From assembly GCF_905475395.1 (NCBI RefSeq), contig NC_058338.1:47341935-47405934 (forward strand): a stretch of 64,000 nucleotides of DNA, given 5' to 3'. Below are positions 7,227 through 64,000 of this stretch, one piece after another. The stretch is from Chrysoperla carnea. Taxonomy: Eukaryota; Arthropoda; Insecta; Neuroptera; Chrysopidae. The notes below the pieces were generated by a model, which saw only the letters and a program-made list of their open reading frames with translations, made no database searches and had not been told where the DNA came from. The stretch's first letter is position 1; the number at the start of each line of letters is the position of its first letter. The translations under genes and the position numbers were made by a program.

Positions 7227-8059
7227 TGAGGTTTACGTGAAATTACATTAATTAGAATATTATAATATGGCCATCTACTTTTCGGAGCGTTTTTGGCGTA
7301 AATAATCCGGATCCGACTTCGATATTGCTCCAACATGGTTTACACTAAGTATGATTTTTAAAGTAATATACAATAATCACCTGTAAGTAATATGAAGTAA
7401 GATGAATTCAAATTTTTAATTATTTCTCCAAAAAAAAAAAAATATTGATTTAAATTCGTACGTTTGAAAACAAAATCACATTGACAACCAGTATTCAGAC
7501 AATCTGCATTATGATAAATACCCAAATGTTGTCTAATAAACAGCAATATTACTAGAAATGGAAATAAATTACTTCAGATTTATTTAACCTTTTCTACGAA
7601 AAGTTGATTTTTCCCTTACTTAGGTAAAGATGTTTCAAAAAACCTATAGAAAAATTATTAGAACAGTATTTTCGTACGAGTGCGACAAAAATAAAATTAA
7701 GTTTTGTCGTAGTATGGTAAAACTTTTGGTCAATAATGGTTTTTGGTATGCAACTTACACATCATTTATGTAATAAAACTGCTTATACTAGAATAAAATA
7801 TCACAATAATTGACAATTCATTCTAACGTAGTACTGTTATATAATAATGACTTTTAACAACCATTCTACAACATGCGTTACAGAATAAGTTGAACGAATG
7901 AAATCTTAAAGATCTTATTAGTCACATCTGATCATTTTTTCATTTTGAAACATTCAAGTCGGGAAAATTTTTTAAATTAGAAAACGGTATCACCACATTG
8001 TACATTTTTTGAAGTTCTTTGTAACACGTCAAAAATTTAGATAGTCTAATAACACTACT
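7227..8059. other. Intergenic, no supported gene
   Basis: AT-rich spacer. A minus-strand stretch at 7440-7560 contains a hydrophobic run and three close cysteines but lacks an ATG and a clear acceptor, so it is not called. Confidence 0.35.
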
Positions 8060-8119
8060 CAACGCAAATTTCTACTACGCAACGCAATTTTCTACTACGC
8101 AACGCAATTTTCTACTACG
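8060..8119. repeat. Tandem repeat, three 20-bp units
   Basis: The unit CAACGCAATTTTCTACTACG occurs three times without gaps. The last two copies are identical and the first differs at one base. Confidence 0.9.
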
Positions 8120-8206
8120 GAATTCTTACAGTATATTTTTATTTAAAAAATCATAAATATTTCAAAGAAACGGCATTTATACTATGAATTACATGTACTA
8201 AAATTT

Positions 8207-8272
8207 TGGGTAGGGATGGGTAGGGTTGGGATGGGTTGGGTATGACATATAAGGGTAGAGATGGGTAGGGTA
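8207..8272 (+). repeat. G-run minisatellite with quadruplex potential
   Basis: About ten GGG runs occur in 66 bases, in units such as GGGTAGGGATGGG and GGGTTGGGATGGGTTGGG. The short loops would allow a G-quadruplex on the plus strand. This is striking in such AT-rich DNA. It lies some 460 bp downstream of the stop codon of the OBP gene at 8735-10366. Confidence 0.8.
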
Positions 8273-8734
8273 GTCCCTCACAAAACAGTAGCCCCTCACA
8301 AAATAGTGCAAGTGTTAGAGTAAAATGAGCCAATCTGATTAAAAAATTTAAGATAATTTATGGTAGAAACAAAATTTTACTTTATGCAACTCCGTAGTAC
8401 CTTTCTAAAGTATTTATCGTTTTTGTTAAAATTATTTTGCCGTCATCCAGATTGTCGGATTTCTTCGAGCTCTAACATAATTTATTATCCAAATTGGAAA
8501 CCGTGCTTTTGGGGAAACTACATTAAATGCGAGGAAAAAGAAATAAATGACATCAGTTTTGAAATAAATGACATGAGTTATTGGATAATGGAAGTGATGA
8601 CAATTAACTTTTGATCTTGAAATTAAATAATATTATATGTTAAATTACAATTGGAAATACAAAAAAAAGCTTAAATTCATACAATTCCTGAAATATGTAT
8701 AATTTTTAGCTAATTTATTTATTTATTAGAATTA

Positions 8735-10366
8735 TTAATATCCACGCCCATGATCGTCATTAACTGATCCTCCATTTTGTTTGAAACATTTTGCTATTAC
8801 TCCAGCTACATCGCATTCATCATTTGCAAGTCCCTCTAAAACAAAATAATTGTTAATTATTTGTAACCTCTCATTATATATTATCAGAAATAATGGAATG
8901 ACAGACCACAATTTGCAACAAGTTTTTGCACCCATAAAGCTATGCAAAACGCGATTTTGTTTTATAAAAAACTATTATGCTTGATAGTAAGTCAAAGATT
9001 TTGAAGAAAACATGATTGCGTCATTTAAATGATATTTGTAGAATATTATGTGTAACATTGAAATATGCTTTTCAAAATAAGTGATAATATCGATAATTAT
9101 ACTTTTCCCAGTTAATAATTATTATCCAAAATTTCAATAAATTTTTCGATATTCTATTCATTTAAAATTTACATACTGTCTCCTCAACAGAGTGGTAAAT
9201 TAACGATCTTTAATGAAAAGGTTTTATATGTTTGTAGCTTTAGGTGTCCCAATATTCTATTCCAAGAAATTTCGGAAATCGAAACCTGATCTTTGTCAAT
9301 ATGAAATTATACCTGAAAATTTTTGAGTTATCACTTTATTACAATGGCCTGAAAATGCTTTAAATTTTTGCAGAATTGTGTCTGATTTGTCCATCAATTG
9401 TATCATTTGTATAAACCCATCAGGATGAAAACGCCCAAGTTGTAACTAAAATAAAAATTAAATCAAATGTTTAAGATATTATTTTTGGTATATTAAAATT
9501 TTCTTACCAATCCTGCGTATTTATAAATGCATGCCAAATAACATTTTTGATTTCGCGAAAGTACATTAACAGAATCAATATTTTGAAGTTCCGCTATAAA
9601 AAATAATTTTAAGAAAGTTAATAATTAACATTATCTATACAGAGTATTTCAACAATCAACTCAGTAAATTTTTTTTTTCACTTATTTAAAAAAAAAAAAA
9701 TATTACCTTGCCCTATTTGTTGACTATTCATACATTCGTGTTGGCCGCTAGTAAATTTTTGTGTTACATCGTAACAGCCTTGACCCCAATCCTAAAAATT
9801 ATTTGGTAACAAATAATTTCAAATAATACGCATGTACGGTACAAAATCTTCCTAATTACCAAGAAGGCAAAAGACGAATATTTCTAATTTTACGACAAAC
9901 AATCATCCTTACTATAAACTAAAAATACCCATTGATCAGACTACATGTTAAAGTAATTAACACGAAAATTTTCGAAAAAAATAACTTAACTATTTTTACG
10001 AAAAATTTGTTTTTTACGTAATTTTTTAACGTAGAAAAAAAGTTTTTAAAATCAATTTAGTTTTCCAATACTCTCACCTGTATTATAATCAGAGGCCTAG
10101 AAAGTTGGAAGGGTGGGTATTTTTGGTCATACATTTCTATTGCTATCCGATTTTAGTTGTGGCTTACGATTTTCAGATGTCTGTCTAAGTGGGAAGTATA
10201 TTTTAATTTTTGAATTGCGTTAATTGATTCACACCACATATTCCTGTGAACTTGAATAAAGGTATTAATTAGGGCTTACCATTAGCATTCGTACATCCGC
10301 TGCATTGTTTTCGCGAGTAAATAGAACTATAATACAGATAAATATATTAATTTTTAAATACTTCAT
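8735..10366 (-). CDS. Odorant-binding protein, five exons, 163 aa, complete
   Basis: Exons in reading order: 10280-10366, 9707-9791, 9508-9593, 9313-9445, 8735-8835, all with GT/AG ends and phases 0, 1, 0, 1. Residues 1-23 form a signal peptide starting MKYLKINIFICIIVLF. The OBP cysteines are at 49, 75, 79, 121, 138 and 147. The spacing is C1-X25-C2-X3-C3-X41-C4-X16-C5-X8-C6, with the signature KCYLAC for C2-C3. An extra cysteine at 35 precedes C1, so the mature protein has an odd number. The stop is in the same exon as C5-C6, unlike its two neighbours, which have one more intron there. The tail is Gly/Asn/Asp-rich (NGGSVNDDHGRGY). An AATAAATAAATAAA run just past the stop can serve as polyadenylation signal. 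A secreted ligand-binding role is inferred from the family. Confidence 0.9.
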
Positions 10367-12901: not shown

Positions 12902-13293
12902 TCAAACAAAAATTGTCGGAAATTTTTTTCAGTAAAAAAAATGTAGAATCAAAAATTTTTTTTTATATGCTAAATAACAATATCTTGAAACTAATTGATT
13001 TTATAAAAAAAAAAAAAATCAAAAAAAGTTGTTGGAAAATTGTTTTTCTAAAAAAAATGTAGAGTGAACAATTTCGAAATCTTTAGCCGTTTTCAAAACG
13101 ATCAATTTCAAATTTATTTTTCGTTAATTATTCATTCATTAAGAGAAATATATACAAAATTGATCGTTTTGAAAACGGCTAAGGATATCGAAATTGTTGT
13201 TCACTCTACATTTTTTTTAGAAAAACAATTTTCCAACAACTTTCGTTTGAAAATTTTTTTTCAACAACTTTTGTTTGAAAAAATTTTCGACAG
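12902..13293. repeat. Large foldback MITE, about 390 bp
   Basis: The inner arms are clear: 13031-13108 (through TAGAGTGAACAATTTCGAAA and GCCGTTTTCAAAACGATCAA) is the inverse of 13158-13238. The match extends outward with gaps to TTCAAACAAAAATTGTCGG at 12902 and TTTGTTTGAAAAAATTTTCGACAG ending at 13293. The short open frames inside it are artefacts of the palindrome. Confidence 0.75.
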
Positions 13294-14351: not shown

Positions 14352-14950
14352 CAGTGGTGGATTTACACTAGGGGCAGTCGGGGCTAGTGCCCAGGGCGGC
14401 AAATTTTCTAGGGCGGCAAAATTTGGAATGTGAGAAAATATTTTCTATACAATATATAATTAACTAATTCTTTTAAATAAACATTTTATTTTTCAAGAAA
14501 TATAATTTATGCATTATGTATCAAATCAAAATTTTGTATATTATAATATGGGAAATTTAAGTGAAAACTATTAAAATAGTTTAATTAATTTATTTCCATA
14601 AAGGTTTGCAAAAATAAAATTTGATATTTTTATTTTCTGGAATTGATAAATTAATATACTTTTTTTGAAGAATTAAAAATATTTTCTAATTATGTATGTC
14701 TTTTTGATAACAGAAACTTTAATTGATCAATGAATTTTCCTAAAATTGGAGAATTATCAAATAATACTAATTAATTTTAATTTAAAAGAACAGTAATAAA
14801 TAATATGTAATACATAATAAATTTTCTGCAATTAATTAGTTATTCTATTTTTTAAAAAATAAGATATCAAAACTATTAAAATAAAATTTCAGTCATAGGG
14901 CGGCATTTTCTAAAGTGCCCCAGAGCGGCAGAAATTTAAATCCGGCCCTG
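14352..14950. mobile_element. Non-autonomous hAT element, 599 bp
   Basis: The ends are CAGTGGTGGATTTAC and AAATCCGGCCCTG (inverse CAGGGCCGGATTT), typical hAT termini. The element is flanked by perfect 8-bp target duplications CCTACTTA (14344-14351 and 14951-14958), as hAT transposases make. Subterminal GGGCGGCA motifs occur in both halves. There is no transposase reading frame. A longer copy in the opposite orientation is at 44670-45635. It sits inside the composite repeat bounded by the tRNA-like segments. Confidence 0.92.
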
Positions 14951-21609: not shown

Positions 21610-23417
21610 TTAGTTAGGTATGTTTGGCGTATCATCACTTTTATTGCACAACATTAAATATGTATGTATGCATGTATCAATACTAACTAATTCGATTATA
21701 TTTCAATTTGTATATTTATAAATAAGTTTATATTTAAAAATAAAATCTGTATTGAACGTATTATAAACATTTTAAGATGTAAATATTTATTTTTAAAAGC
21801 GTCCATGAAAACAAAAAACGATAATTAAGATGACTTAACAGCAAGAAGAAACAAATTTAAATACAAAATTATACAAAACATAAAAGAATTTAAATAAATA
21901 AATATTTATTTTTATTAAAACATTCATTTTATTTCAATCATCAATAATTGAAAGAAACACATTTTACAATCAGCAATATTTCTAAGTGTACCTATTTAAA
22001 GAACTACGAGCTGGATAGCAACTTCCAGTAAGAGGCTTGATTTTGACCCATAATAATAATATAAAAAAATTTAATTTACCATGTTTTTATAGTGGACTAA
22101 AAAGTATAAAATAATTTTTGAAATCCTCATGAAGGTTTAAACTTTATACAGATTTATAATTTTTTCTAAATTGTCCTGAAAATTCATACTTGGCAACTTT
22201 TGAGACCTAATAAAATATGTGTAAGATTAAAACGAAAAATTTCGTCATTTTCGTTTTCATCATCTTTTTCGCCTCCTTTTCGTTTTCTCTCTAGCTCATC
22301 GGGAAGTTTGTTTAAAATTAATTACAAAATTCCATCCGGGCAGACATACAAGAAAGCGAGTTAATAAAAACATGGTAAAATAGACATATTTAACAATAAT
22401 GGTCATATGACAAAGGGATATGATATACAAGATATTTATATAATTTACACCCAGATTTGACCGTAGGAAAAGAAAAAAAACTAATTAAAAGTTAAGACCT
22501 TAATTAAAAAATTTAAAAAAATAAAAAACCGGGTCAATCGGCTTCATTAAGTGCCTACGTACTATTTTTTTTGTTTTTTTTTTAAATTTTAAATTTGCAA
22601 TTTTAATGATGTATTATGTGATAACTTAGTTAAAGAAGCGTAGCCAACGAAGTTAGACGAAAAATTTTCCATTTTTGGCTCAGTTTTCGAAATATCTCAG
22701 ATTGAAAATTTCGATTATATTTATTTAGTCTTTGATATTATGAAAACTAAGCCGTAGATATATCAAAGTTTATTATTCCTACATTTCATCTAAATTCATA
22801 ATTACTCCAAGCGTCTTAGGGTTTCACCTTGGAATCTAACGGAATAAGCAGAATTTTTGTGCAAACCTTTATTTTGATAGTACAAATGTTGTCTCAAAAG
22901 TCACATATGATTACCCGTGCGCGTCCTTAAATATTCAAGGTCAAAGGTCGCGAAAATAAGTTTTTTGTGAATATCTCGTTTCTTTTGCCTTCAATCGTAT
23001 TAACATTTATTGACTACAAATATGAAGTCAAATTAGCACTAGGTCAAATTTTTAAGCTAATTAAATTACTCATGTATCTAGATTGATTGAATGGCTCTTA
23101 GTTCATAGTAATAGATAGTTTAATTATCCTAAAATTGACCTTTAAACCTGTAAAAATTAATTATATTTATTAAACCGTCGCCGTGTCATTCATAAAGGTA
23201 TTACAGTTAAATTGTAACAGACAAACTCAAATGGTTACAAAAATTAGGGTAGTTGTTACTTATTGAAATTGAAAATCTTTTTATTTGAAAGCTGGTGCTT
23301 CCCATGTGGTCCCATTTCAATTTGATCCAGTTCTGACAATGGCATCCATGAGTAAACCATATTAAAAAAAAACATATTATTCCCCAAACCTGTGGCGTCG
23401 CCTTCTAAGTTTTTTAT
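21610..23417. other. Intergenic, mostly old repeats
   Basis: AT-rich DNA. The part at 22680-23130, with phrases such as AATATCTCGTTTCTTTTGCC, resembles generic transposon filler. No gene is supported. Confidence 0.3.
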
Positions 23418-23750
23418 AGGGCACATTTTTACAACTACAACTTTTATTCTATCTCTAACGGTTTACAAGATGGGTCCTACGGGCCCAAGATCCAGTTGAC
23501 TTATGGTACTCATTTACGGCTTCGACCTCACTTTTTACGTCCTGAGCACGCTATTAAAATTTGAGCTTGATATCTTTGCTCGTTTTTTAGTTATCGTGTT
23601 GACGGACAGACAACCAAAAATTCACTAATTAGGTGATTTTATGAACTCCTATACCAAAATTTTGTTCGTAGCATCAATATTTTTAGGCGTTACAAACTTG
23701 GGACTAAACTTAGTATACCTTGATATATTTCATATATACATGGTATAAAA
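23418..23750 (-). repeat. 55-kb dispersed repeat family, copy
   Basis: In reverse complement it carries the family blocks in order: CATGTATATATGAAATATAT, CCCAAGTTTGTAACGCC, TTGGTATAGGAGTTCATAAA, GTCCGTCAACACGATAAC, AGGACGTAAAAAGTGAGGTC, and TCTTGTAAACCGTTAGAGAT. Confidence 0.85.
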
Positions 23751-24170
23751 AATAACCAGAGCTTTTGAAAAAGACGCTATGAAAGTTTTCGTAAAGGAAA
23801 ATAATTATTACCCACAACATTGGTATCAGGTCGAATAAAATCCTAAAAGTCTAGAAATGATTGAATGGAGTTCATTTATAGTAATTCGCTTTTGTTCATG
23901 AATCAAAAACATTTGAATGATCCTATCAAATCAATAAAAAAACACATTATTATTTTTCAAATGAATATAAACAATTACATTTAAAAACGAAATTAAATAG
24001 ATTTTATTATTTATTATATTAAGTAATAAAAATTATAATAATAAATTTATAAGTACTTTAAATACGCTGCCTATTTGAGGTCTTTTATTATAAGAATATT
24101 AACATAGTATTATAATGTACAGCATGAAAGCGAAATAATATACCAAACTTTTTTGTAATGCATCACTGGT

Positions 24171-27755: not shown

Positions 27756-29639
27756 TTAAAATAAATTGCGTTTATTCATTTTATAATCATTTGTTTTCAA
27801 ATTTACGGGTTCATCTAATACTTCTCTAGTAAAATTTTTCAGTTTTTCTCTTTGAAATTCCAATAATTTTTCAATATCCTCTTCATGTTCGTTGATAATT
27901 TCATGTTCTCGTGAAGTAATTGTATGAGGTGCATATTTTCTTTTGAATAAACACTTATCCAAATTTAAACTATCTTCTAATATATTAACTTCAATTTTGT
28001 TCTGCTGATTTTTCTTAAACATATTTTTAGCAGGATGTAAATTTAATTCGGTGGTTTTAATCGCTGCCATATGCAAATTTTTACGTTTAATATTCAATAA
28101 ATGCTCAATTTGTTTTTCATTCGCCGTAATTAGATGATTTTTCGCTAAGGGTTTTTTAAAGTTATTATTTACTGGATTAAAGTTTGGATGAGGAGTTGTT
28201 GTCGCCAAGAACGATGTTGAACAAGTATTGGATTGCTTATTCATGGTTTTGGAAATAAAATTTGGAATTGGAGTATTCAGTGTTTGACATTCAAATGAAA
28301 CTGGCGTGGCCATAAAATTTGGCGATGATTTGTGTGGTTCTAGGGTAGTGTTTAAATTTAGAACTGGATCTAAAGTGGAAACTGACTTAGCCACGAAGGT
28401 TGCAGAATAATTATTTGATTCCAAAGTAAAATTAATATTTAAATTTGGTAATGGTGTATTAACTAAACGATTTTCCAAGATATGAATTTTTTTTGATTCC
28501 TTCATTGGAGTAAAGCCATTATTATTCGTCGATTCCATTGAAGATAAATCAGACGATGAACTATTTTCGTAATTTGTCTCACATGACAATTTCGGTGTGG
28601 TTAAATTATCCCAAATCAATTTATTTTTCGTTTCAATACTTTCTGGTTCCTTATCTAAATGCTGCTCAACTATTGGATTAACTTTAATAAATTTTTCAAT
28701 TTCATTTTTAACACAAAATGTTAAAACATTATCATAAGAAATGTTATTTTGATAATTTTTGATTAAATTTTCTAAATATTTCCGATCAAAATCATTCCCT
28801 TCATTTGGTGCATAAAAATTCATATTCTTTATACGTTTTTCGATTGAAGTATAGATTAATTTTAGTTTCTCTTCCGGTAATGATAAATATGTATCCGCAT
28901 TTGATGACATTTTTTGTATAATACAATTTCTTATTTCATTATTTAACTTTTGTTTAAATTTTACATTTAATATATTTTCAATATTTTCATCTGGTATTAT
29001 TTCTGGAAATGTTTCAATTTCTGGGCATTTTAACTGTTTTTGATATGGTATTTCATTATCATGATTTATTGTTTTAATTGGGTAATCGTAATTATCGAAC
29101 ATTTGATCTGCTTCTTCCAAAATTGTATCTACATCAATACTCGAATCGTTATTATTCGAATCGAGAGTTTTGTTAAAAACAGACGATGTTTTTTGTTTTA
29201 GTTCAAGTAAAGTATTCTGAGTTATAGTTTCAATTTTAGATGTACACGTACTTTCATAAACATTAGGTATTTGTGGTGAGAGATTAATTAATTCACACGA
29301 TTTTTCACGCACTTCGTCTTCTTTTGCTTGTTTCACAATTTTTCGCACTAATTTACAAGGTTTTGGATATTTTGTTTCATAATCAATTATTTTACGTTTT
29401 TCACATTTCACTAAATCTTCATCTGTTGCCTGAGTACCATTTCGTGTAACAAATTTTGAGCACATTTCGTATCGTAATTTTGGTGATTTAAGTTTTAATT
29501 TGTTTGATTTCAGTTTAGTATGTTGAGTCGAAATTTTTCGATTCAGTAATGGAAATGGTATTTTACGAAATAATAATGAATTACGATGTCGTTTTCTTGT
29601 TGAGCTTAGCTTGTAAAGTGTTTTTTTATACTTTGACAT
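27756..29639 (-). CDS. Unrecognised intronless protein, 627 aa
   Basis: An uninterrupted frame from the ATG at 29639 to the stop at 27756, by far the longest in the window. The N-terminal 60 residues are strongly basic (MSKYKKTLYKLSSTRKRHRN, then several KLKSPKL-like runs). The protein is Asn/Lys/Ser-rich and looks largely disordered. Residues about 395-490 hold three loose copies of a unit resembling LNTPxPN...TLE...FxAxxVS. Two short helical segments near the C terminus, about 508-530 (EKQIEHLLNIKRKNLH) and 585-608 (EEDIEKLLEFQREKLKNF), look alike and could be coiled coils. No signal peptide, membrane span or catalytic motif is visible. The composition suggests a nuclear or cytoskeletal protein, but I cannot assign a family. 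The lack of introns could mean retroposition. Confidence 0.8.
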   Translation of the reverse strand: MSKYKKTLYKLSSTRKRHRNSLLFRKIPFPLLNRKISTQHTKLKSNKLKLKSPKLRYEMCSKFVTRNGTQATDEDLVKCEKRKIIDYETKYPKPCKLVRKIVKQAKEDEVREKSCELINLSPQIPNVYESTCTSKIETITQNTLLELKQKTSSVFNKTLDSNNNDSSIDVDTILEEADQMFDNYDYPIKTINHDNEIPYQKQLKCPEIETFPEIIPDENIENILNVKFKQKLNNEIRNCIIQKMSSNADTYLSLPEEKLKLIYTSIEKRIKNMNFYAPNEGNDFDRKYLENLIKNYQNNISYDNVLTFCVKNEIEKFIKVNPIVEQHLDKEPESIETKNKLIWDNLTTPKLSCETNYENSSSSDLSSMESTNNNGFTPMKESKKIHILENRLVNTPLPNLNINFTLESNNYSATFVAKSVSTLDPVLNLNTTLEPHKSSPNFMATPVSFECQTLNTPIPNFISKTMNKQSNTCSTSFLATTTPHPNFNPVNNNFKKPLAKNHLITANEKQIEHLLNIKRKNLHMAAIKTTELNLHPAKNMFKKNQQNKIEVNILEDSLNLDKCLFKRKYAPHTITSREHEIINEHEEDIEKLLEFQREKLKNFTREVLDEPVNLKTNDYKMNKRNLF

Positions 29640-33078: not shown

Positions 33079-36000
33079 TTAATTTAACTTCCGATACTTT
33101 CGATCAGGTTTCACATTATCATTACTTGGGTAAATATTTTCTTCTGGAAATTTTGGTATATTTGGAAATATATTTGTGAACGGTGTTGGTTGGATTACCG
33201 AACGACGTCTACGCTTTTTCTTCCCGGTAACAACACCTAATTGTAGTAGCACAGGATTCGTTACAAATGCGGCTGCCGTACCCAATAATGCTAGACCAGC
33301 TAATGGAATTAACAATGTTTTCAATGCCAATGCCTGAAAAATAAAATAACAGATTATACCCTCAACGAAACGTGAAGTCAAAGAAAAGAATGCAAATAAA
33401 AAAATAAACAAACAAATATAGATATTGCCGAAATATCCGAAGAAAATCTTCCCGTCGTTGCTTACTGGGTATTAGACAAATTTCGAAAATGTGAAAGAAA
33501 TTGTAAACATAATAGTCACACATTCCACCCGATTCACTTTTATTAAAGAGCCTTAAATGCATGTTGCTAGCATCTAAATAAAGTTAACTGGAAAGCGGCA
33601 AGCATTAATTTTAGTTCCCGTGGTAAATTCATTAGTTTTTGTACTGAATAAAACATAAAAAGAAAGATACGAGAAAGTTTTCTCGGGGAATCTTTGTTTT
33701 CATTATAATTCCGTCAATTTTAATGCAAATGATTTGCAACTTTTTTTATTTTCACGATTTTTTATAGTACTTTAAAGAGTGTTGGATATACTTTTTTCAA
33801 AAAACATCAAATTTTACAATTATTTGACGTTAAATATTCCGAATTTCAATCGCCAATAACTCGGAAAGTTTTGACTTTTCGAATTATGTTTCAATGACAC
33901 CTTTTTCTTAGAATTCGTTCCTGTATCGATTTCCATAAATTTTTCCACACCCGAGAATTTTTAATCGAACAGTTTTTATAAAGACTCCTTGACTGGCCCT
34001 GGATTCCGAAATATAAATCTTGCGGCTGTCCACTATTCAGATTGGCAACTACGATAGTGACACGACTAGAGACTGCCTCAAAATATATCTAAAGGTACCT
34101 TCATTCTAGTAAAGCCAAATTTATTAGGTTCTCAAACAAATAAATGTTTAAATTCATCAGCCTTACCTTTCCAAAAAGCAATGATTCATGAAACCCAGCA
34201 TGATGGTGATGATCATCATGGTGATGCCCATCATGGTGATCGTCATGATGATATCCATAATGTCCAACATCATGTCCATCTCCATAATGCCCTCCGTCAT
34301 ACCCATGATATCCGTCATGGCCGCCATGATCACCTTTTATATGATGCTCATGATAATGATAATCTGCCACAGGGGTTTTATATGGTTTAATTCCATCATA
34401 CTCATGACCCGTGGGTGTACCCACTATTACACTTGCTACAGTTTTTTTTTTTGTGATTTTGGGGTTAGATAACAGATAAATTTAAATCAATAATCTATTG
34501 GTTAATATTACTTAATAAAGTTTGTAAGCTACTAAGCTACTAAGTAGAAAAGCATAAAAGCTCGCATGCAAAGAAAACTATTCTAACTATTCCACAGAAC
34601 ACATTCTATGTTCAAGTTGCAGACGCGTATTTAAAAAGAATTTTTTTTTGTTAAATTTTGTACCTGTGTTTAGTACAGAATTGATTGATTGCAGAATTTT
34701 TAATGAAACAGTAGGTTCTCAATTGAGAAACGTACCAAAATGATAGTACTTTTAGACCGTAAGCCTAAAACGAGGTATTTTTTGGAATTTTTTCGACATT
34801 TATTTCCTCTGTCGTATATTTTAACAGAATGGTAGACCGTGGGGAAGAAAGTGTGCTTTATTAGATGATTAATACATACATGAAACTTCGTGAATGGCTT
34901 CGTTTTGACGAGTCTACCAGTTTATACTATCAATTTGAGTTTTCTTGCAATGATTTCACCATTTATGTAATAGAATTGCCTATATCTATAAATGAGAGCT
35001 CTATATAAATGGGTAAGATCGTTATCGTAAGATCAAATAGGTTCTCAAATATTAATTTTAAGCAAAGGTAAATTTTTAAATTAATTATTTATTAATTTAA
35101 TAATCAAAACGGCGTATAAATGTATTGTACACAGAGTATACATGTTTTGTAGTATGTGTGTAATTGATATTTGAAAAAAATATGCAACGCAACGAATAGC
35201 CTCAAAAATTTCAAATTGATATATGTATAAAAATTATAGCTTGCTTAGATGGAAAATTACGCTTTTTTATTCATTCTACTATGATAAAATTTGTTCCTTA
35301 CTGTAACAAGTTTTTTAAGGAAATTACGTCTTTATGATGGAAATCCGTTATATTTAGATCGAAGATTTCATTAGGAGCTATTCATTAATTACGTAAACGT
35401 TTTAGGGGGGTGGAGAGGGGAGGGTTTAAACCCATTCTTACGTAAGGTTTAATGAGTTGAAATTTTATATTAGAAATAATTTATGCACATCGGGAATTAA
35501 AGTCTCTGTGCTAAAGAATAAAAATCTTTAATTTACGTCAAACAGTGAATTTTAGTGTACCTGACCTTTTTCTTATAACTTTTTATTATTCGACAAAACG
35601 AATAATAAATCACAATCACGTTCTTAGTCAATTTTACCGGGATTCTATTTCTACATAAAATTGAGAGGTTGGAGTATAGTAAATTTGTTTATGTGGAACA
35701 GTTAAAATAACTTTTGGATTAAATTTTGTGAAATCATTAACTACAAAATAATTACAAATTAAAGGACTACCATGATGATATCCATCACCACCAAATCCGG
35801 TGCTTTCATACAATCCAGTGCTGCCTGTCGGCGTAGCAGCTACATGATATTCACCTTGCAATTCTTGCGATGCAGCGGTAACTCCAAAGCTACTTGATGA
35901 ATGTCCTCCTTTTATTATGATTAAAAACTAAATATATATAAAATTTCTAAAACATAAGCCATGTAAGCAAACTTTTTAGTCATATTTTCCCCAAACATAT

Positions 36001-38719
36001 AAATCTACGCATTGCATCAAAGAGGTAGGGTGGGTGGTATTATGTTATAAATTCGTTTCGTAACAGTAGGTGAAGTAAATGTCAAGGAAGTGCCTTTTGG
36101 GAGTGTCTTTTTCTAAACCTCACTTCCCCCTTTTATTATCCAAATATTATGCTTTCTCAGCAAATTGAGTTAGATGTAATCGAGTTTTTTTAAGGTTTTA
36201 TGCAATTTTAAGACTCCTTAAATTGAGGTAGAAGGTTGAATTAAGGTAGTTTGTACTTCCCGGCTCCATCCGCTTGTTTTAATATTTCATGTATATAAGA
36301 ACATTTCTAGACAAAAAATTCAATTAAGATTTAAAAAATTTATTTTTAAGATCTAATGAGGGGAAAATATGACCCTAGTAATCGAGCTCTGCTGGTCATA
36401 GAGTTTTTTTCTACTTAATTAGTTTTGATTTTAGGACCAAAATTGAACCAATGGGTGCGTACGAAAGACTGCAGAGTTGAATTGCAGCTTCTGACTTACC
36501 TAAAGCCTAAAAGCTTTGCTCCTTTGTATACTTTTTGTTATAACCTACTTTTTATGCCAATGCATGCAAATTAATTTTAACTTAGGGTGGTCTAGTACCC
36601 TAACCAAGCAGCTTTGCAATAAAGTAATCAAAATCGATTTATTTGAACTTTACCAAATAAAGAGTTATAAAAACCTTTTTTAGGTTGTACCCTGTATATT
36701 AATTGAAATTTAAAATAAAAAACAACCTCTCAGAAACCAATTAAAAAATTTTCGGTTTGTTTTCAAATTCATTGGTTCAATTTTTTCTCTAAAATACTTA
36801 AAAATTTAGCAAATGCGATTCTAATTAATTCATGAAAATACTATTACAATTATATATTTTTATATTTTTCCTAAAATAAGCTATTTTGCAAAAAAATAAT
36901 ATAATTTCTTCTTTTTTCCAAAATACTTCGAAAACGAAGCTGTTTCGCTAAGCTATTTTATTACGCAATCTATACATTTTGTAACAAATAAATAATATTA
37001 AAATATCAGTTTCTTTTACCGTCATCATGATGCGCAGCTGGATAAACATGAGATGAACTAGTTTGGATCGAATCTCGATCATTTCCTGTAAAACCCGGCA
37101 AAGTTTTTGATTGTTTCGTGAGTGCTTTTGTAAATAGTACTTGATTTTTTGGAGAATCCATAGATGATGATTTATCTGAAGCAAATTTTGGTGAGTCTGT
37201 TGTTAAACCAGAATTTCTTATCGATTCTAATGAACTCTAAAAAAACAAAACAATTTTTATTTGAATATATTTACCTCATACACTTTTCCACCAATAATAT
37301 ATACAGAGTTGATCACGCTATACGACAAGGAAGATTATGGCTAAACGGCTTGATTTTAACAAAATTTTCTTTCAAGGATAGATGGACGGTTATTGACTGT
37401 ACATTTTAAAATTATTTTCGTAATATACAGGGTGACCGGAAACGCGGAATGCATGAAAGTTGTATCTGATTCTACGATCAAAATAAAGGTGTTTTTCATG
37501 AAGGTTTACCTCACTTTAATGTCACGGTTTTCGAAATATTCTGTATTTTCTGAAATTATAGTAGCAATTTTAACGTATAATTTCTCAAAACTTATAACAG
37601 TTGTTCAAACCATAAACTTGGAGTCTACTAATCGATTAAATTTCTTGTCGCAACTGTGAATACGAGTACAGGTTGTCACAAAATTATGGCTAAAGAATTA
37701 AAAGTTTTAAACGATAATAACTTGTTTAACTTAAATACAACACATGGTTTATGTTAATTGTAAATGTAATTGCATAGAGTCATTTATATCCAAAAAGTTT
37801 TGAGATAGAAGTCATTTTTTGACACAAATATGTTAAAAGTGCCTAAAATTTATAAAAATACTAGCCTGATACCCGCCCGTTTCACTGGGCTAAAAAGTAA
37901 AAAACATCGCTTTGTAGTCTCCACCTACCTTGATGTGCACAGTTTTCAATTTTGTTAAATGTAAAATAGTCATAATTCATTCAGTATATCAGAAAAGTTG
38001 GCCAAGAATGGTTTAACAATTACTATTTTAAATTTTTACAGAATACTTTAATTTATGGTTCAAAATGATGGTTATGAATCTGCTCTGTCTATAATCATCA
38101 TTTTGAACCATAAATTACAGATTTCTGTAAAAATTTAAAATAGTAAATGTTAGATTAAATTTTATTTTTTAACATATCTTAATAAATTATAGCTCATGTG
38201 TTATTCTGATATATCAGCTATATTGCTGTACAGTTTCATTTAAAATCATGCGCTAGTTTTAGCGTGAAATCGTACCAAACAAACAAACATCCTTACTTTC
38301 GCATTTATAATATATAGAGATAGAATATATTTTTGGTCGATATTGGACCATATTCGATTAAGTTTCCTAAAATTGATATCACTAAACCTCTTCAGTAGAT
38401 ACAAAACCAGAAATAAAAGTTATTACTACTACTATTTATACTTGGTTTAAAGGTGTAAAGTCATTTCGAATATTTGGAGAAAAACATCAAATTTACACAA
38501 TTGAGAAGATCTCATTAATACACTTTTATATTTCGATTCAATTTCGAAAAATTACCAATAAAATTACAAAAGTACAAAATTTTTCCAAAACTAACAACTA
38601 ACTAATTCACTTACAGGTATAAAATTTCCACTACTTTCATCGGATAAGTTAAATGAAATACCATTACAATATCGAATCACAAATACACAAAATGTTAATA
38701 AAAATATTTGATAGAACAT
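33079..38719 (-). CDS. Secreted His/Gly/Asp-rich protein, five exons, 332 aa
   Basis: Exons in reading order: 38615-38719, 37020-37236, 35756-35908, 34167-34435, 33079-33333. The lengths sum to 999 nt, in frame throughout. Residues 1-20 are a signal peptide (MFYQIFLLTFCVFVIRYCNG). Exon 2 is Ser-rich (SPKFASDKSSSMDSPKN). Exon 3 has a Gly/Ser stretch and GGDGYHHG. Exon 4 is packed with His, Gly, Asp and Tyr (GYHGYDGGHYGDGHDVGHY), which could bind metal or act in cuticle or egg-shell matrix. Exon 5 gives a hydrophobic segment (LKTLLIPLAGLALLGTAAAF), then NPVLLQLGV, then KKKRRRRS at about 286-292, a possible furin-type site, and a Pro-rich tail. I recall similar hydrophobic-plus-basic modules in insect secreted proteins but cannot name the family. 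The exon 3 borders are the weakest: the acceptor lacks a good pyrimidine tract, and a second phase-1 donor lies 16 bp upstream. Confidence 0.75.
35385..35640. repeat. Dispersed repeat with CTTACGTAAG motifs, copy 2
   Basis: It holds the inverse of the 18720-19010 blocks: CCATTCTTACGTAAGGTTTA, ATATTAGAAATAATTTATGC, TCTTTAATTTACGTCAAACA, and TTATTATTCGACAAAACG. It lies in the intron between exons 3 and 4 of the His-rich secreted protein gene, near a G-rich run (AGGGGGGTGGAGAGGGGAGG). Confidence 0.7.
37861..38320 (-). mobile_element. Non-autonomous Helitron, 460 bp
   Basis: Read on the minus strand it starts TCTCTATATATTATAAATGC at 38320 after a flanking A, and ends CAGGCTAG at 37861 before a flanking T. 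A GCCCAGTGAAACGGGC hairpin lies next to the 3' end. A second, perfect-looking hairpin of about 55-bp arms (38030-38145, around ATGGTTCAAAATGATG) sits inside. Its ends resemble those of the Helitron at 6740-7226. It occupies intron 1 of the His-rich secreted protein gene. Confidence 0.82.
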
Positions 38720-39959: not shown

Positions 39960-40560
39960 AAGAGAAAACCAACTATTAAATGAGTTAATTGTTGAAATAC
40001 TCTTTTTATAAATTAGAAGAGTTTAGAAAACCAACACAATTATGGCGGCCTTTCGACATTTATTTGGTTTTCCAAAATTTTTAAATTTTTCTAAAGTATT
40101 TTCTACATTTGTTGTCGTTTTTCGAAAATGTTTCACTAGACCACACAAGTTGAGGCTACCTGCAAATTTTCAACTTCTTATCTTTTATAGAAATATAAAT
40201 ACTTTTATATATATCTTTTGTAGAAAATGGACACCTATGTTTTCTTCTAATCTGCGCCCTCATAGGTACATAGTGACGTTTACGAAAAAGTGTTTCAAAC
40301 AAAAATTGTTATTTTTTTTATAAGGAAAATTTTTTTACAGTGAAATTTGTTTTCTATCTTTAACGGCTTATAAGATTGGTCCTACGGAACCAAGATCCAA
40401 ATGGCCTATGTTGCTCATTTTCAACTCAAATTCACTTTTTACGTCCTGACTCCGCTATAAAAATTTCAGCTTGATATCTTTTTTTGTTTTTGAATAATTA
40501 TGATAGCGAACAATTAGGTGATTTTATGAACACCTATAACAAAATTTAGTATTATCTTCT
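39960..40560 (-). repeat. 55-kb dispersed repeat family, long copy
   Basis: In reverse complement it carries AACAATTAGGTGATTTTATG, ACGTAAAAAGTGAATTTGAG and TTATAAGCCGTTAAAGATAG at one side. At the other it has GAGTTAATTGTTGAAATAC (39977-40000), the same end motif seen at 55563-55612 and 48755-48795. An internal stretch has diverged or been replaced. The plus-strand frame 40042-40323 belongs to this repeat. Confidence 0.65.
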
Positions 40561-41463: not shown

Positions 41464-41572
41464 CTCATCGTCACAAAATTTGCACGCTTTTTACCATTCT
41501 AATTCATACATATAGCTATATCACTTAGAATGGTTAAACCTGTGCAAATTTTGTGGCGCAGAATATACATTT
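41464..41572. repeat. Palindromic MITE, family 1 copy 2
   Basis: The arms TCGTCACAAAATTTGCACG and TGTGCAAATTTTGTGGCGCA, with inner ACCATTCTAA and TTAGAATGGT, are the same as in the copy at 2420-2540. Confidence 0.75.
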
Positions 41573-44669: not shown

Positions 44670-44849
44670 CAGGGCCGGATTTAAATTTCTGCCGCCCTGG
44701 GGCACTTTAGAAAATGCCGCCCTATGACTGAAATTTTATTTTAATAGTTTTGATATCTTATTTTAAAAAAATTAGAATAACTAATTAATTGCAAAAAATT
44801 TATTATGTATTACATATTATTTATTACTGTTCTTTTAAATTAAAATTAA

Positions 44850-44880
44850 TCTTATCTTATATATTTAAACGAGCAATTCT

Positions 44881-44949
<69 letters not shown>

Positions 44950-45232
44950 ACGATCTTGGAAATGGCTCCAACGATTTTCATGAAAATGAGTATGTAGGGG
45001 TTTTTTGGGGCGATAAGTCGATCTAGCTAGGTTTCATTTATCAGAAATGTCGTTTTATCCGTCTTTTCATGAAAAATTCATCAGACATCTATTGGTGTAT
45101 AACGTAGTTAATGAAATACAATGCAAATTATAACATAACAAAAAGGAGGCGTTTGAGTAGTCTAAAGTGAAAAATATGACTCTTGCTGACATCTATTGGC
45201 GAATAACCGTACGAAGCTCGGTCATCCAGATA
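44850..45232 (+). mobile_element. Helitron-like insertion nested in the hAT copy
   Basis: Comparison with the uninterrupted copy (ATTAATTAGTATT) shows about 383 bp inserted between A and T with no target duplication, as Helitrons do. It begins TCTTATCTTATATATTTAAA. Near its end is a GC-rich imperfect hairpin ACCGTACGAAGCTCGGT, then CATCCAGATA. The final bases do not fit CTRR, so the 3' end is mutated or variant. A related fragment is at 48975-49135. Confidence 0.7.
44883..44947. repeat. (TA)n microsatellite
   Basis: About 32 uninterrupted TA dinucleotides lie in the 5' part of the nested Helitron-like insertion. The plus-strand open frame with repeated Ile-Tyr comes from it. Confidence 0.97.
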
Positions 45233-45643
45233 TTAGTATTATTTGATAATTCTCAAATTTCAGGAAAATTCATTGATCAATTAAAGTTTCTGTTATCAAA
45301 AAGACATACATAATTTGAAAATATTTTTAATTCTTCAAAAAAAACTGTATTAATTTATCAATTCCAGAAAATAAAAATATCAAATTTTATTTTTGCAAAC
45401 CTTTATGGAAATAAATTAATTAAACTATTTTAATAGTTTTCACTTAAATTTCCTATATTATAATATACAAAATTTTGATTTGATACATAATGCATAAATT
45501 ATATTTCTTGAAAAATAAAATGTTTATTTAAAAGAATTAGTTAATTATATATTGTATAGAAAATATTTTCTCACATTCCAAATTTTGCCGCCCTGGGAAC
45601 TAGCCCCGACTGCCCCTAGTGTAAATCCACCACTGGTCTTACT

Positions 45644-47751: not shown

Positions 47752-47842
47752 TCCTTCGAGCCGGATTTGAACCAGCGACCTATGGATTACTATTGATTAT
47801 TTCCTCTACAGTCCACCGCTCTACCAACTGAGCTATCGAAGG
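47752..47842 (-). tRNA. tRNA-Tyr (GTA) with 18-nt intron
   Basis: On the minus strand it starts CCTTCGATAGCTCAGTTGGT and ends CGGCTCGAAGG plus discriminator A, with a seven-pair acceptor stem. The anticodon loop reads CTGTAGA. An 18-nt intron (GGAAATAATCAATAGTAA) follows the base after the anticodon, the canonical place for eukaryotic tRNA-Tyr introns. The B box is GGTTCAAATCC. It lies in the proposed intron of the plus-strand gene, on the other strand. Confidence 0.97.
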
Positions 47843-48021: not shown

Positions 48022-48094
48022 CGATCTTGCCAGGATTCGAACCTGGAATCTTCTGATCCGTAGTCAGACGCGTTATCCGTTGCGCCACAAGACC
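48022..48094 (-). tRNA. tRNA-Arg (ACG)
   Basis: 73 nt starting GGTCTTGTGGCGCAACGGAT. The anticodon arm is TCTGACTACGGATCAGA (anticodon ACG). The T arm is CCAGGTTCGAATCCTGG. The acceptor stem closes with one G-T pair, and the discriminator is G. No intron. It lies 179 bp from the tRNA-Tyr gene on the same strand, each with its own internal promoter boxes. Confidence 0.97.
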
Positions 48095-49135: not shown

Positions 49136-52100
49136 ATTTAAGTGTTAGAAAATCTACAACTTTACATTGAGAAACTGCTTGTTTCACATTAATTCAGATC
49201 CAAACGTCTTTTGAATTTTCCAAAAATCTCTATTAGGTCCAAAGTTATTATTAAAAAAGGTAATGGCGAGCCAGAATAGAATGCTGCATATGAAAAGGTA
49301 TGCATCGGTCGCTAATCATTTATGGAATTCAACTCTACAAACAAATATTCGAATAATGTATCGGAATTCCCGTTGAACATCCCTTAAATTCACCAATAAA
49401 ATGGATGACTCATGTACACATAACAAATGCACCCATTCTCAAATATAAAATGTTTAATATGACGCATATTTCATTTACCATCAAACCTTCCCCTTATTAT
49501 TGTAAAATAGAACATATGTCGTTTGCTTAATTCACGTATGTTAATAAAAATGGTACATACATACATACATGCATTATATTTGAAGGGAGGTTTTTGTTAT
49601 TATTATTTTTATGAGGGTGTTATTTTTTCTAAGCTGCATTTTCATTAAAGCATACTTAGTTTTTGTGGATTATTATTCACTCTACTACAATTGCTAACAA
49701 CAATAGAGGAATAATACAACACAGACAGGTGAAAATTGAAAAAAAAAACTACTTTTTGTTTTGGTGATTATTATAAGGGTGAATTTTTTGCATACCTTGT
49801 GGTGATGAATTAATTTTCTTGTGTGTAGAATGAATTTATATGTGGTAGCTCTTTTGTGGCAAATTTGTTTGATTAAAAAAAAGTGTGTTTATGTGCAAAT
49901 TAGTTAATTTTAAACTTCTATAATCAATTTATCGTTCAAGTTAATTTTTCCCTTTTATACACTTTCTTCATATGTGTTTGCCCATCATTAATGGTCTTTA
50001 AAGTTTAAGGATGTATGAGCACGGTGGTGGGGGCACTAATTTCAAAAGTATATTTTTAAAATTTTGATGGGGAATTATATTATAGCTTGACGATATAAGA
50101 CTAAAAGTAAGAAAAAAATTTTCGATACCTGGCGTAATTTTCAAAATATCGAAAATTGAAAATTTTCTTTAATTATTAATCTTTCGATATTTCGAAATCC
50201 AAGACAGATATCGAAAAACTTTATTCTTAATTTTCGTCTATACTCATGAAGTTATAACAAAATTCGGCATCAAAGTTGAAAATAAGACAAAAATAATTTC
50301 AGCTATTATACTACCCTGTTCGTACATTTCTTATACGGATGGAGACACTTGATTTTTTTCTTTTCTGTGATTGCTTATATGTTTACTTTCTATTAAACAG
50401 TTTTCTTTTTATTTGCTTTGATTTGTTCCAAGTGAAAATTATCAAAAACTTTCAAAATATGCCTTTTTTGAGAATTCTCCTTAAGAGCAGAAAATGGTAA
50501 CAATAAACATAAAACATGATTTAAACCCAGAATAATGAAATCAAATTATTTCATGTTTATCATTACTTCATTATTAACATATTTTTTTTAATTTGAAAAA
50601 CCGTGGATGAAACCGAGTACTAGAATAAGCCCGTATTGGCTCGTTTATTGTTTACATTCACTTTAAAAAACTTTATAATCAACTCGTGTATCTTCACAAC
50701 TCATCGAAAAACTTATCAACTATCTTGTATCTCTATATAAAAATTCATGTTTCCATAATATCTGTATATATTTTTACATGATAGGCAACTTTTTAAACTA
50801 ATCTGTTATGAAATTGCATAAAACAAATAGAAATGTAAACAAAATATTGTGTTAATTTGTAAAAATATAAAAATTTAGTGCTTAATTTTTGTGTGTATTA
50901 TTTAATTTTAATTAACATTGTGAACACGTGTTACCAAGTTTTTTATATTAAAAAAAGTAATATTCTAAATGAATTTTGTGTAATGTTGTGACAGAAAAAA
51001 AACGCAACTATTAACAGTCGACTGGTTTTTGTAATAATCATAATAGTTTTTATTTTGTTGAATACATGTGTGAAATTCGATATGGCGTATTTTGGGGTAA
51101 TTTCTATTATATTTTTGTTCTGTTTGTATTGTGAATATTATTTTTATTATTTGATTATTTGATTCGTTACATACGATTTGCGTGTTAAATAGTTTTGAAA
51201 TATATTATCTTTATGGTTAGTTAGTTAAGTCAAATGATACAGGGCCGAGTTGGTGATTATTAGGGATTTTAGTATTATAATTTTCGATGCAGTAAAATAC
51301 TTATACGTTAGTCTTAATTGAGCTAATATTCATTAACCATTTTTTTGAAGCTTATTTGTTGAGAAGTCTGATTAATCTGAATACTGCCGAATATAGACAA
51401 GAAAAATGATTAATAAATGAAAAAAAGTATATTCTTTGTCCTTGTTTTTCTAACAAGAAGTGTTTATAAGTTCGAACAAATTACTGTCGTAAAAGAGCCC
51501 ATTTTCAAAAATAAGAAATATTGATTCTTTTTTTACCTGCAGCTGTCTCTAATTCAGGCATGGGTGACTTATTTTAAGTCGAAGTAAACATTGTTATAAC
51601 TTTATTGTGTGTCATAAACTCTATTGTGTGTCTTTTTATCCATTGTTTATAGAGGAGGAAGCGAGACGAGTATACGACTCTTCTACCTATCTCAGTTTCT
51701 CTAATAGTAATGAGATAGGTAGAAAAAAAATGTTGTCTCTCTGTCTTACTCGTATTTTAGGTTACCACTAGTTAGGGTGTCGCTGTCTTGCTCGTTATTT
51801 AGTTACAGAAGTCTGAGGGACTTCTCTGAGTCACATTTGCACATGCCTGCTCTAAATGCCAACACTTACTTAGACACCTACTCAAAAAATACACGCTTGC
51901 AAAATACAGTTTGTCCTTTTTTGGTCAATCCCTCCCTTATCACAACGTACATTTTCAGCGACCCATCTACAAATTTGAAGGTCACAATAGCGCACCTCTA
52001 TAAATACAAATAGTTTAAAATTTCAAAAAAGTTCAAGTTAAGAAAAAATTAAATTAAAACTGGCAAGCAACTACGGACGTCACGTTTCCTATGAGATTCC

Positions 52101-53353: not shown

Positions 53354-53357
53354 TTAA

Positions 53358-53667
53358 GGTAGTACTATCGGTAAAAGACTTTGCATTCAGAATTTAATGA
53401 AACTTGGCATAGTTGTCCATTATTATATCATAATAAACCAGTTAAATTTTTAGGGGCCTTCAGAGAACTGAAAAAAAGATATTTTATAGATATTTTAACA
53501 TTGATCCTTATGGGAAATCACAGGTTTTATTTTATTTCACAAAACTGGGCGTTCAGATTTTCAGTTCTCCGATTGCCCCTAAAAATTTAACTGGTTAATT
53601 ATGATATAATAATGGACAACAAATTTCATTAAATTCTGAATGAAAAGTCTATTACCGATCTATCACC
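53358..53667. mobile_element. Foldback MITE flanked by TTAA, 310 bp
   Basis: Two arms of about 115 bp are inverse copies. One reads GGTAGTACTATCGG, then GCATTCAGAATTTAATGAAA and TTATTATATCATAATAAACC. The other ends CCGATCTATCACC. Both sides abut TTAA (53354-53357 and 53668-53671), the target used by piggyBac-type transposases. A solo end of the same family at 4112-4140 also abuts TTAA. Confidence 0.7.
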
Positions 53668-54043
53668 TTAAGTGAAAAAACTCGCAAAAATCAAAAAAAA
53701 CTATTTTCTTGCTATAAAAAAAAGTTGACATCCAATGCAAAAAAATTAATTAGGAAAGTTCTAGATCTCAAAATACCTATCGATTGTCGTTTGTTAATTA
53801 TCCGATTTTTTGCATAGGTACCGAGAAAACGTGAAAAAACTAGCGAAAATAGTCAGTTTTACATTTGTTAACTTTTTTCTTTTTCGATTTTAAAGTTGAT
53901 ATTTGGTGAAGCTATGAGTAATAGGTTCACAAATCTTCAGTTTTTTTAGCAAATAATTTTGAAAATTCTTCGAAATATCGCATTTTTTCGAAATAAAACA
54001 CCTTTCGTAAAAACTTTACTCGTGGACTTAATCTCCTCGCCCG

Positions 54044-54379: not shown

Positions 54380-55065
54380 ATAATATAAGACCAATTCCAA
54401 GATTCAATGGTCAAGATAGTGGTGGTTCGATCATCAATAATAAATTAACTTTTTCTCTTTACTTTCTACTACTTTCTAAGAATGTTTCTAGGTTACAGGT
54501 AGGTGTCATATAAGCACCCTTTGTCAAATATTACCAGTGACCAACTTTCATTAATAATATATGCACATGTTTAGACATTTTTTACATAATCTATACTCAA
54601 AGGGGATGAAAAACCCAATTTAGTATTTACATTGGAATGTTTGTAACATACGTTTTATAATAAATATGATTAATTGAGGGAATGACAACAAACACTTTGA
54701 AAAATTCTATTTAGGAAAAAAAACAACAAAACATTTTGATATTCACTTTATTTAGTTGATATACAAAACAAAACAATATTTGTAGCATGAATCATAGTTT
54801 TTCGGGGTGTTTTAACAGTGGGGTTAGAGTATATGATATAAAGCAAATCGTACACAGGGTTTGAGGGATATGAAGGGAATTTTATTTACTAAATAATACT
54901 AATAGCATACTCAATGAACCTTTTCACTTGAAACTTATTTTACCTAAAAAATAAAGAATTCCGTTCGCCGGCATTCAAAATTTCGAATAAACGAATAAAG
55001 TTTGTATAGTTTTAAGTTTGTAGTATAAGGCATCTGGCCAAGTAAACCATTTTTATCCAGTTTTT
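54380..55065. other. Spacer, nothing recognised
   Basis: AT-rich DNA without supported features. Confidence 0.3.
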
Positions 55066-55625
55066 ATACCATGCATATATGTAATATGCAAGGTATATTA
55101 AGTTTAGTCCCAAGTTTGTAAAAATAAAATGTTTAAAAAAATATTGATGCTATAAACAAAATTTTGCTATAGGTGTTCATAGAATCACCTAATTAGTCCA
55201 TTTCCGGTTGTCCGTCCGTCCGTCCGTCTGTGGACACTATAACTCAAAACCGAAAAAAGATATCGAACTGAAATTTTTACAGCGTACTCAGGACGTAAAA
55301 AGTGAGGTCGAGTTCGTAAATGAGCATCATAGGTCAATTGGATCTTGGGTCCGTAGGACCTATCTTGTAAACCGTTAGAGGTAGAACAAAAGTTTAAATA
55401 TAAAAAATGTTCCTTATCAAAAAATAAACAACTTTTGTTTGAAACTTTTTTTCGTAAACATCATTGTTTACCCGTGAGGGCGCCAATTAGGTGGAAATTT
55501 TATAGTATGTACTATACTTGTTTGTATGTGTAATGTGATAAAGAAATCAACACTGTCTATGCATGGTATTTCAACAATTAACTCAGTCAATTGTTTGTTT
55601 TCACTTGTTTAATTAGAAATTTTAA
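55066..55625 (+). repeat. Dispersed repeat family, most complete copy
   Basis: Starts TATACCATGCATATATGTAA, with CCCAAGTTTGTAAAAATAAA, a CCGTCCGTCCGTCCGTCTGT run at 55198-55230, and AGGACGTAAAAAGTGAGGTC. It continues with GACCTATCTTGTAAACCGTT. It ends with GGTATTTCAACAATTAACTC and CACTTGTTTAATTAGAAAT. Other copies or fragments are at 17690, 23418, 39960, 57036 and 57560. No open frame or inverted termini are seen, so the class is undecided. Confidence 0.8.
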
Positions 55626-56330: not shown

Positions 56331-57035
56331 AAATTTTGTTAATTTCACTTGTTTATTTTTCAATATGAACGAGTAATATGCTAATTTGTCCGAACAAGCC
56401 ACTGTATCGATCTCAATCGTATATCCGTCATTACAGCGCTATGTATATAGCAACGTTCACATAAAATCCTTTAAGAGAGTAAAACTTGGTAGAAAATAAT
56501 TTGTATGGTAAAAAAATGGCTAAAAAAATTTTGAGTTTTTTGACTTTATATCTGACTTGATTTTCCAAATTATAAATAATAATTTACTTAAATTTTTTAA
56601 CTTTGTTGGTCAATAAAATTTCATTTCACAGTATAATGAGAATACTTAAAAAAAGACCATGCAAAAAATACTCGATACCATTTAGGATATTTCGCCCCAT
56701 TCTCATTAATCTATGTATAATAAAATGATAATTTTGTATTATTTTCTTTTTCAAAAGTGTGAAAAATATTATAAAGATTATATTATCTTAATAATTTGTA
56801 CCCAAACCATCATCATCATAATTTTTCTTTCATTTTCTTTTGTTCCTATTATTATTATCATTATAATCATTTGCTTTCACTACTATCCTTAAGCAATTAT
56901 TTTTATAATGTATATTTAGTAAGTATATAAGGATTTACTAATACTCTATATACGGTAACGTGTAATACCCCGGATACAATTTACTTTGAATCTCTATCGT
57001 TCCTCGATTGCTATATGTCTATCTATGAGCACTTA

Positions 57036-57480
57036 TTATACCATGTATATGAAATATATATGTATAAGGTATATTTAGTTTAGCCCCAAGTTTGTAACGC
57101 TTGAAAACATTGATACTACCAACAAAATTTTGGTAGAGGTGTTCATAAAATCGACTAATTAGCCCGTTTTCGGTTGTCTGTCCGTCTGTCTGTCAACACG
57201 ATAACTCAAAAACGAAAAGAGACATCAAATTGATAGCGTGCTTAGGAAATAAAAAGTAAGGTTGATTTCGTAAATGAGCAGCATAGGTCGATTGGGTCTT
57301 GATTCCGTAGGATCCATCTTGTAAACCGTTAGAGATAGAACAAAAGTTAAATGTAAGAAATGCTCCTTATAAAAATATAAAAAACTTTTGTTTGAAATAT
57401 TTTTTTTGGTAAAAATCACTGTTTACCCGCGAAGACGCAAATTTTGTGCAGATTTTTTAGTATGTATTATATGGGAATGT
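57036..57480 (+). repeat. Dispersed repeat family, copy
   Basis: Repeats the 55066-55625 order: TATACCATGTATATGAAATA, CCCAAGTTTGTAACGCTTGA, GGTTGTCTGTCCGTCTGTC, GAAATAAAAAGTAAGGTTGA, ATCTTGTAAACCGTTAGAGA. It stops before the right-hand end motif. Confidence 0.85.
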
Positions 57481-62826: not shown

Positions 62827-62828
62827 TA

Positions 62829-64000
62829 CAGTAGAATCTCGATAACTTAAACCTCGGTAACATAAAAACCTCTGTTACTTCAAAAAATACTATGTTCCCT
62901 TCCCATCAGAGCCCAAAACCTCTATAACTTAAAATACGCAACCTCTGTAACTTAAATAAATAATCTCTGTATAGGCCCTCAGTAACTACATAGAAACATG
63001 TACATACCTCTATATCCCACCAAAAACATAAATGTGAAAAAAGGCGTAGATGTCACAGAATCCCAATAAACTCAATTACGTCAGCCCAAAAAAGTTGTGA
63101 AATCCCGTAGAGAAAAAAATTCTTCGAAAAAAATTTATAAAAATGACATAAATTTATTGAGTAACTTTTCCGTAAAGACGCATTAAAGTATTACATTAGC
63201 AACTTTTCGGTGACGTCATACCTACACGCACCTGTATAGGAGAACAAAAGAAAATCGTTAACCCCCTACTACCTCCCTCCTCCCCTCTAATGTTATGACG
63301 TTATAATTTTTTCACAACTTTTTTTAAACATCAAAATTTAAATTTAAACAATCGAAAGTATTCTTCAGATAAAAGTCAAGCACCTACTTAACAAAGGCCT
63401 AATTTTTTTTTACTAAAGTACGAAAATTATTGGTTTAAATTTCTTGTGTAGGTTTCTCCTTAGTACGTATTTATTTTATATTTTACTTCGCAAGTTTTCG
63501 GAATAGAAAAACGAATCCAAAAATAAAAACTTGCGAAGTAAAATATAAAATAAATACGTACTAAGGAGAAACCTACACAAGAAATTTAAACCAATAATTT
63601 TCGTACTTTAGTAAAAAAAAATTAGGCCTTTGTTAAGTAGGTGCTTGACTTTTATCTGAAGAATACTTTCGATTGTTTAAATTTAAATTTTGATGTTTAA
63701 AAAAAGTTGTGAAAAAATTATAACGTCATAACATTAGAGGGGAGGAGGGAGGTAGTAGGGGGTTAACGATTTTCTTTTGTTCTCCTATACAGGTGCGTGT
63801 AGGTATGACGTCACCGAAAAGTTGCTAATGTAATACTTTAATGCGTCTTTACGGAAAAGTTACTCAATAAATTTATGTCATTTTTATAAATTTTTTTCGA
63901 AGAATTTTTTTCTCTACGGGATTTCACAACTTTTTTGGGCTGACGTAATTGAGTTTATTGGGATTCTGTGACATCTACGCCTTTTTTCACATTTATGTTT
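62829..64000. mobile_element. pogo/Tigger-like foldback element, cut by window end
   Basis: A TA (62827-62828) precedes CAGTAGAATCTCGATAACTT, the style of terminus found in pogo/Tigger-type elements of the Tc1/mariner group. Five variants of ACCTCTRTAACTTAAA follow within 150 bp, like subterminal transposase sites. The core is a long palindrome (arms 63024-63498 and 63526-64000). If the symmetry continues, the right end should fall near 64195, outside the window, for a total of about 1.37 kb. No coding frame is seen. Confidence 0.65.
63024..64000. repeat. Perfect inverted repeat, 475-bp arms, 27-bp spacer
   Basis: Positions pair about an axis at 63512 with no shift from the centre to the window edge. 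Every homopolymer I compared had equal length in both arms, and I found no mismatch by eye. The spacer is 63499-63525. The right arm is truncated by the window end, so the true arms are at least this long. Confidence 0.95.

Follow-up and report, generated by a model that had tools for sequence, protein, structure and literature searches.

The right-hand edge of the window, i.e. the 64,000-nucleotide stretch of Chrysoperla carnea DNA analysed here, probably carries a young copy of a non-autonomous foldback element of Tigger-like type (pogo group, Tc1/mariner superfamily), inserted at a TA dinucleotide. This reading is based on the association of a TA and a Tigger-like end with iterated motifs, the lack of any long frame and a palindrome with identical arms. 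The element would belong to a known kind, the cut-and-paste transposons, and would be a hairpin-shaped copy of one of them. A preliminary description of this DNA had already proposed a foldback transposon; the verified arms and the location of the palindrome just inside a pogo-group end go part of the way towards bearing this out.

The left end of the element

The terminal sequence, CAGTAGAATCTCGATAA (62829-62845, plus strand), directly follows a TA (62827-62828) that is presumably the left copy of a target-site duplication (TSD), the partner of which would lie at 64196-64197, beyond the window. This end was compared with the twelve TSD-plus-TIR strings of the MITE table established for Rhodnius prolixus (PMC4678618). 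Together with the TA, it matches the end of MITE_51, a Tigger-like MITE, at 15 of 17 positions, a score equalled by none of the 13,557 other TA sites of the window. When the five Tigger-like ends are scored jointly over 17 bases, 62829 ranks first among 13,558 TA sites with 15 matches, the runner-up reaching 13. The remaining four Tigger-like ends are less similar, which counts against the Tigger-like reading: over 24 bases, they match at 13-15 positions, 4-42 other TA sites being equally good, and two of them are better matched at another TA site (MITE_125 with 16 and MITE_185 with 14). Compared with the ends from mariner, Tc1 and IS630 elements, seven in all, the site at 62829 is unremarkable, as 2,259-8,900 TA sites match them equally well. 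The left end thus carries a Tigger-type terminal sequence, and its assignment to the pogo group in the preliminary description is supported by published Tigger-like MITE ends, foremost by the 15/17 match to MITE_51.

Five direct copies of a subterminal motif, AACCTCTGTAACTTAAA, are found on the plus strand between 62835 and 62956. They start at 62835, 62850, 62867, 62917 and 62940 and score 14, 15, 15, 16 and 17 of 17, respectively, the last value reflecting the definition of the 17-base motif from the copy at 62940. On both strands of positions 1-62828, a single site reaches 14/17 and none scores higher. Two weaker sites, at 62975 (11/17) and 63005 (10/17), are at chance level, 209 sites of 11/17 being found elsewhere. 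To judge from the sequence, the five strong copies are likely transposase-binding sites. All the features that had been reported just outside the left palindrome arm are therefore present, namely the TA (62827-62828), the pogo-like TIR (62829) and the iterated subterminal motifs (62835-62940).

No stop-to-stop frame of at least 75 codons overlaps 62829-64000, and all six frames are interrupted by stops throughout. The visible part of the element is therefore non-coding and, by frame length, devoid of a transposase ORF.

A palindrome with identical arms

Self-comparison of the window reveals that the verified part of the left arm (63024-63498, plus strand) and the right arm (63526-64000, minus strand) are reverse complements of each other without a single mismatch (475 of 475 bases). 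This length is a lower bound, as the match stops solely at the window edge (64000), which cuts the right arm. Between the arms lies an unmirrored spacer of 27 nt, CGGAATAGAAAAACGAATCCAAAAATA (63499-63525). Each arm includes nine homopolymer runs (at least 6 A or T, or at least 4 C or G), confirming the earlier observation that the arms, 475 bp or longer, are identical around a 27-bp spacer, homopolymers included. Such long inverted arms (at least 475 bp) around a short middle correspond to the organization of a foldback element. Elsewhere in the window (1-63023), the longest exact inverted repeat is 140 nt long and pairs distant copies of another repeat (14410, 45455). Neither another match to the palindrome arms nor a second copy of the element was detected within the 64-kb window.

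The motif TGACGTCA occurs once per arm, at 63211 and 63806, and three times in the whole window. Further TGACGT/ACGTCA sites are located at 63078, 63296 and their mirror positions, so that each arm carries three TGACGT-type motifs, which may possibly have a regulatory role.

Folded as RNA, the 977 nt of the palindrome form a single long stem of -797.6 kcal/mol, versus a mean of -183.85 kcal/mol for 20 shuffles; as none of the 20 shuffles is as stable, a chance origin of the palindrome is excluded. Transcription of such a sequence would give an RNA with a stem of 475 bp or more, paired almost perfectly, as would be expected of a host hairpin-RNA locus making siRNAs, for which the transposon end would be a mere neighbour or the raw material. 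This explanation is very improbable, given that the transposon end sits at the expected place and that no other match to the arms is found in the window. The transposon reading requires no host function. If transcribed, the hairpin could nevertheless feed the siRNA pathway. The suggestion made earlier that the palindrome can yield double-stranded RNA, and so siRNAs or piRNAs, holds as regards the ability to fold (-797.6 kcal/mol); small-RNA production has no support beyond this folding. A more ambitious proposal, in which a pogo/Tigger foldback family with perfect TIRs of about 670 bp would still be mobile and in which read-through from neighbouring genes would generate a hairpin RNA silencing its own transposase source, appears very improbable.

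Palindrome or assembly artefact?

Perfect arm identity, including homopolymers, and a short spacer are also features of fold-back artefacts, and the palindrome can be traced only to 64000, the window edge. The underlying element could accordingly be an ordinary Tigger-like copy without any palindrome, the fold at 63512 having been introduced by a chimeric palindromic read or by an assembly path that doubled back on itself. According to an excerpt of PMC12870357, long-read data contain foldback reads, from which assembly-graph tangles can result; of the examples given there, one read lacks any sequence between its arms and another has about 2 kb of it. As foldback reads thus vary from none to about 2 kb between arms, the 27-bp spacer is not decisive. 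No adapter remnant was found in it, the longest exact run in common with the four adapter sequences compared being 6 bases; this argues only weakly against an artefact, since, in the same excerpt (PMC12870357), stretches of non-mapping sequence longer than 11 bp are typically present in fewer than half of the foldback reads.

The position of the palindrome is more informative. The Tigger-like end points towards its centre from a distance of 683 bp, a placement that makes a random fold-back hard to credit, as about 1-2 % of the window shares such a position. Indeed, positions with an inward-facing end of at least 14/17 within 700 bp leftward represent 1.1 % of the window, all due to the end at 62829, and 2.2 % at 13/17, a second end being then found at 21234; the 700-bp limit was picked after seeing the case, and this is one case. 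The location within a Tigger-like end therefore argues against an artefact in a suggestive manner only.

Furthermore, palindromic repeats are common in the window, which also speaks against an artefact. Besides a TA run, eight other palindromic stretches of 44-318 bp are found, at 2416-2542, 4165-4264, 13008-13261, 38014-38152, 41469-41558, 50060-50277, 51681-51724 and 53354-53671. These palindromes are usually decayed, since the seven with alignable arms of at least 40 columns show 76.9-91.9 % arm identity in local alignments; the eighth has an identical arm of 14 columns only. As a control on gene conversion these palindromes are weak, being shorter and not shown to belong to the family of the present element. 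A match of about 70 % links two of the stretches, 2416-2542 and 41469-41558, which may perhaps represent one MITE family. All these data considered, a fold-back artefact is an unlikely source of the palindrome.

Extent of the element

The centre of the palindrome is 63512, and the mirror position of 62829 is 64195. If the element is symmetric, its full arm is 670 bp and its full length 1,367 bp, both values being computed as the bases past 64000 are outside the window. We infer that the arms continue until a right end near 64195 that mirrors the left one, giving TIRs of 670 bp and an element of 1,367 bp. The preliminary description had predicted TIRs of about 680 bp ending near 64195; the computation retains the end position and shortens the arm to 670 bp.

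The structure could also be nested or asymmetric, with a palindrome that ends soon past 64000 and an element whose own TIR is short, for example if an independent palindromic MITE, about 1 kb long, had jumped into a Tigger-like element or been captured by one. The start of the verified arm at 63024 is set merely by the window edge, and the strong motif copies (62835-62956) lie entirely outside the verified arms, as a nested structure would allow. However, no recognizable TIR or target-site pair was seen by eye near 63024 and the 475-bp match gives no hint of stopping at the window edge, two weak arguments that leave this organization decidedly unlikely.

Age and possible formation

The preliminary description considered that such identity implies very recent formation, ongoing gene conversion or an assembly artefact. 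With 0 differences over 475 positions, an arm divergence above 0.63 % would yield such identity less than 5 % of the time. At an insect mutation rate of 2.8e-9 per site per generation, the 0.63 % bound corresponds to an age limit of about 1.1 million generations for the arms. The arms are therefore young in evolutionary terms (about 0.6 % divergence at most), 475/475 setting only a loose age limit. Ongoing gene conversion, which the data do not imply, is unneeded to explain the identity and is set aside, not disproved.

In the formation proposed here for the Tigger-like foldback element, template switching or abortive gap repair would have added an inverted duplicate of one end of an older element, and the 27-bp spacer would be the turn-round loop. 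Either such a template switch or a replacement of one end by the other in a Tigger-like element, similar to that of the mariner lineage Rpmar49, would explain this anatomy. The arms would be identical because this inverted duplication is young. A transposase supplied in trans would bind the ends and subterminal repeats and promote cut-and-paste movement.

Comparison with known elements

The Tetris foldback transposon of Drosophila virilis reportedly has a short middle flanked by long inverted repeats, an organization shared by the element described here. Foldback transposons such as Tetris belong to other transposon groups and are not known to carry pogo-type ends.

The closest terminal sequences are those of the Tigger-like MITEs from R. 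prolixus, MITE_51 foremost (15/17), which are also non-coding and have a TA next to a similar end; no partner element was found for them (PMC4678618). In contrast, the total length of these MITEs is 274-796 bp, as obtained from a search limited to repeats less than 750 bp apart, and long palindromic arms are undescribed in the MITE section of that paper (PMC4678618). TIRs of 670 bp would be unusual beside such MITEs and beside the Tigger elements of bees, whose TIRs are 10-33 bp in an excerpt of PMC8472432. For the mariner lineages Rpmar49 (221-bp TIRs) and Rpmar17 (57-bp TIRs) from R. prolixus, an excerpt of PMC4678618 describes how the 3' part, copied in inverted orientation, took the place of the 5' part, leading to exceptionally long TIRs. 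On the basis of this excerpt, these lineages would resemble the present element in superfamily and in long TIRs acquired by end replacement, whereas they differ by their mariner rather than Tigger ends and by the length of their TIRs. The Tec elements, which also belong to the Tc1/mariner superfamily and have TIRs of about 700 bp, carry three ORFs and are restricted to ciliates according to an excerpt of PMC7325037, and they are not pogo elements.

Judged by titles and abstract openings, the literature matches listed included no long-TIR or foldback pogo or Tigger element, and text searches with five variants of the terminal sequence returned no transposon paper. Collections of viruses, bacteria and archaea, which carry little weight for an animal element, gave no match either: viral_contigs was searched with the palindrome centre, a degenerate pattern of the terminus and the 22-base terminal sequence, genome_contigs with the last of these, and phages by blastn.

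If the right end is as predicted, pogo-group elements, which have short TIRs in bees, can yield young hairpin derivatives with long TIRs, as mariner does; failing that, the locus represents either an artefact or an unexceptional transposon copy. Such palindromes are a practical assembly hazard and a possible source of double-stranded RNA.

Other repeats and genes of the window

The regions 14352-14950 and 44670-45635 are copies of one repeat in opposite orientations, with 94-97 % identity and an exact stretch of 140 nt in common; the copy at 44670 is interrupted by a stretch containing a (TA)n run (44883-44947). A dispersed repeat family is represented in both orientations at 23410-23751, 40247-40550, 55058-55516 and 57030-57471, with 73-83 % identity.

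Of the 38 stop-to-stop frames with at least 75 codons in the window, ten, all outside the element, were scanned against Pfam: none gave a match above the curated cut-offs, and two weak matches, to FixP_N and Mre11_C_bact, fell below them. The longest frame listed by far, with 627 codons (27756-29639, minus strand), gave no hit in Pfam at E values up to 0.1. An open frame at 34104-34481 (minus strand) encodes a low-complexity sequence rich in His, Gly and Asp, with a Pfam match below the cut-off only.

Two adjacent tRNA genes are found on the minus strand, at 47752-47842 and 48022-48094, one being tRNA-Arg(ACG) and the other an intron-bearing gene called Asn(GTT) by ARAGORN, which, from its sequence, looks more like tRNA-Tyr(GTA) with a misplaced intron boundary. 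The intron-bearing tRNA gene and the AT-rich composition of the window fit a eukaryote.
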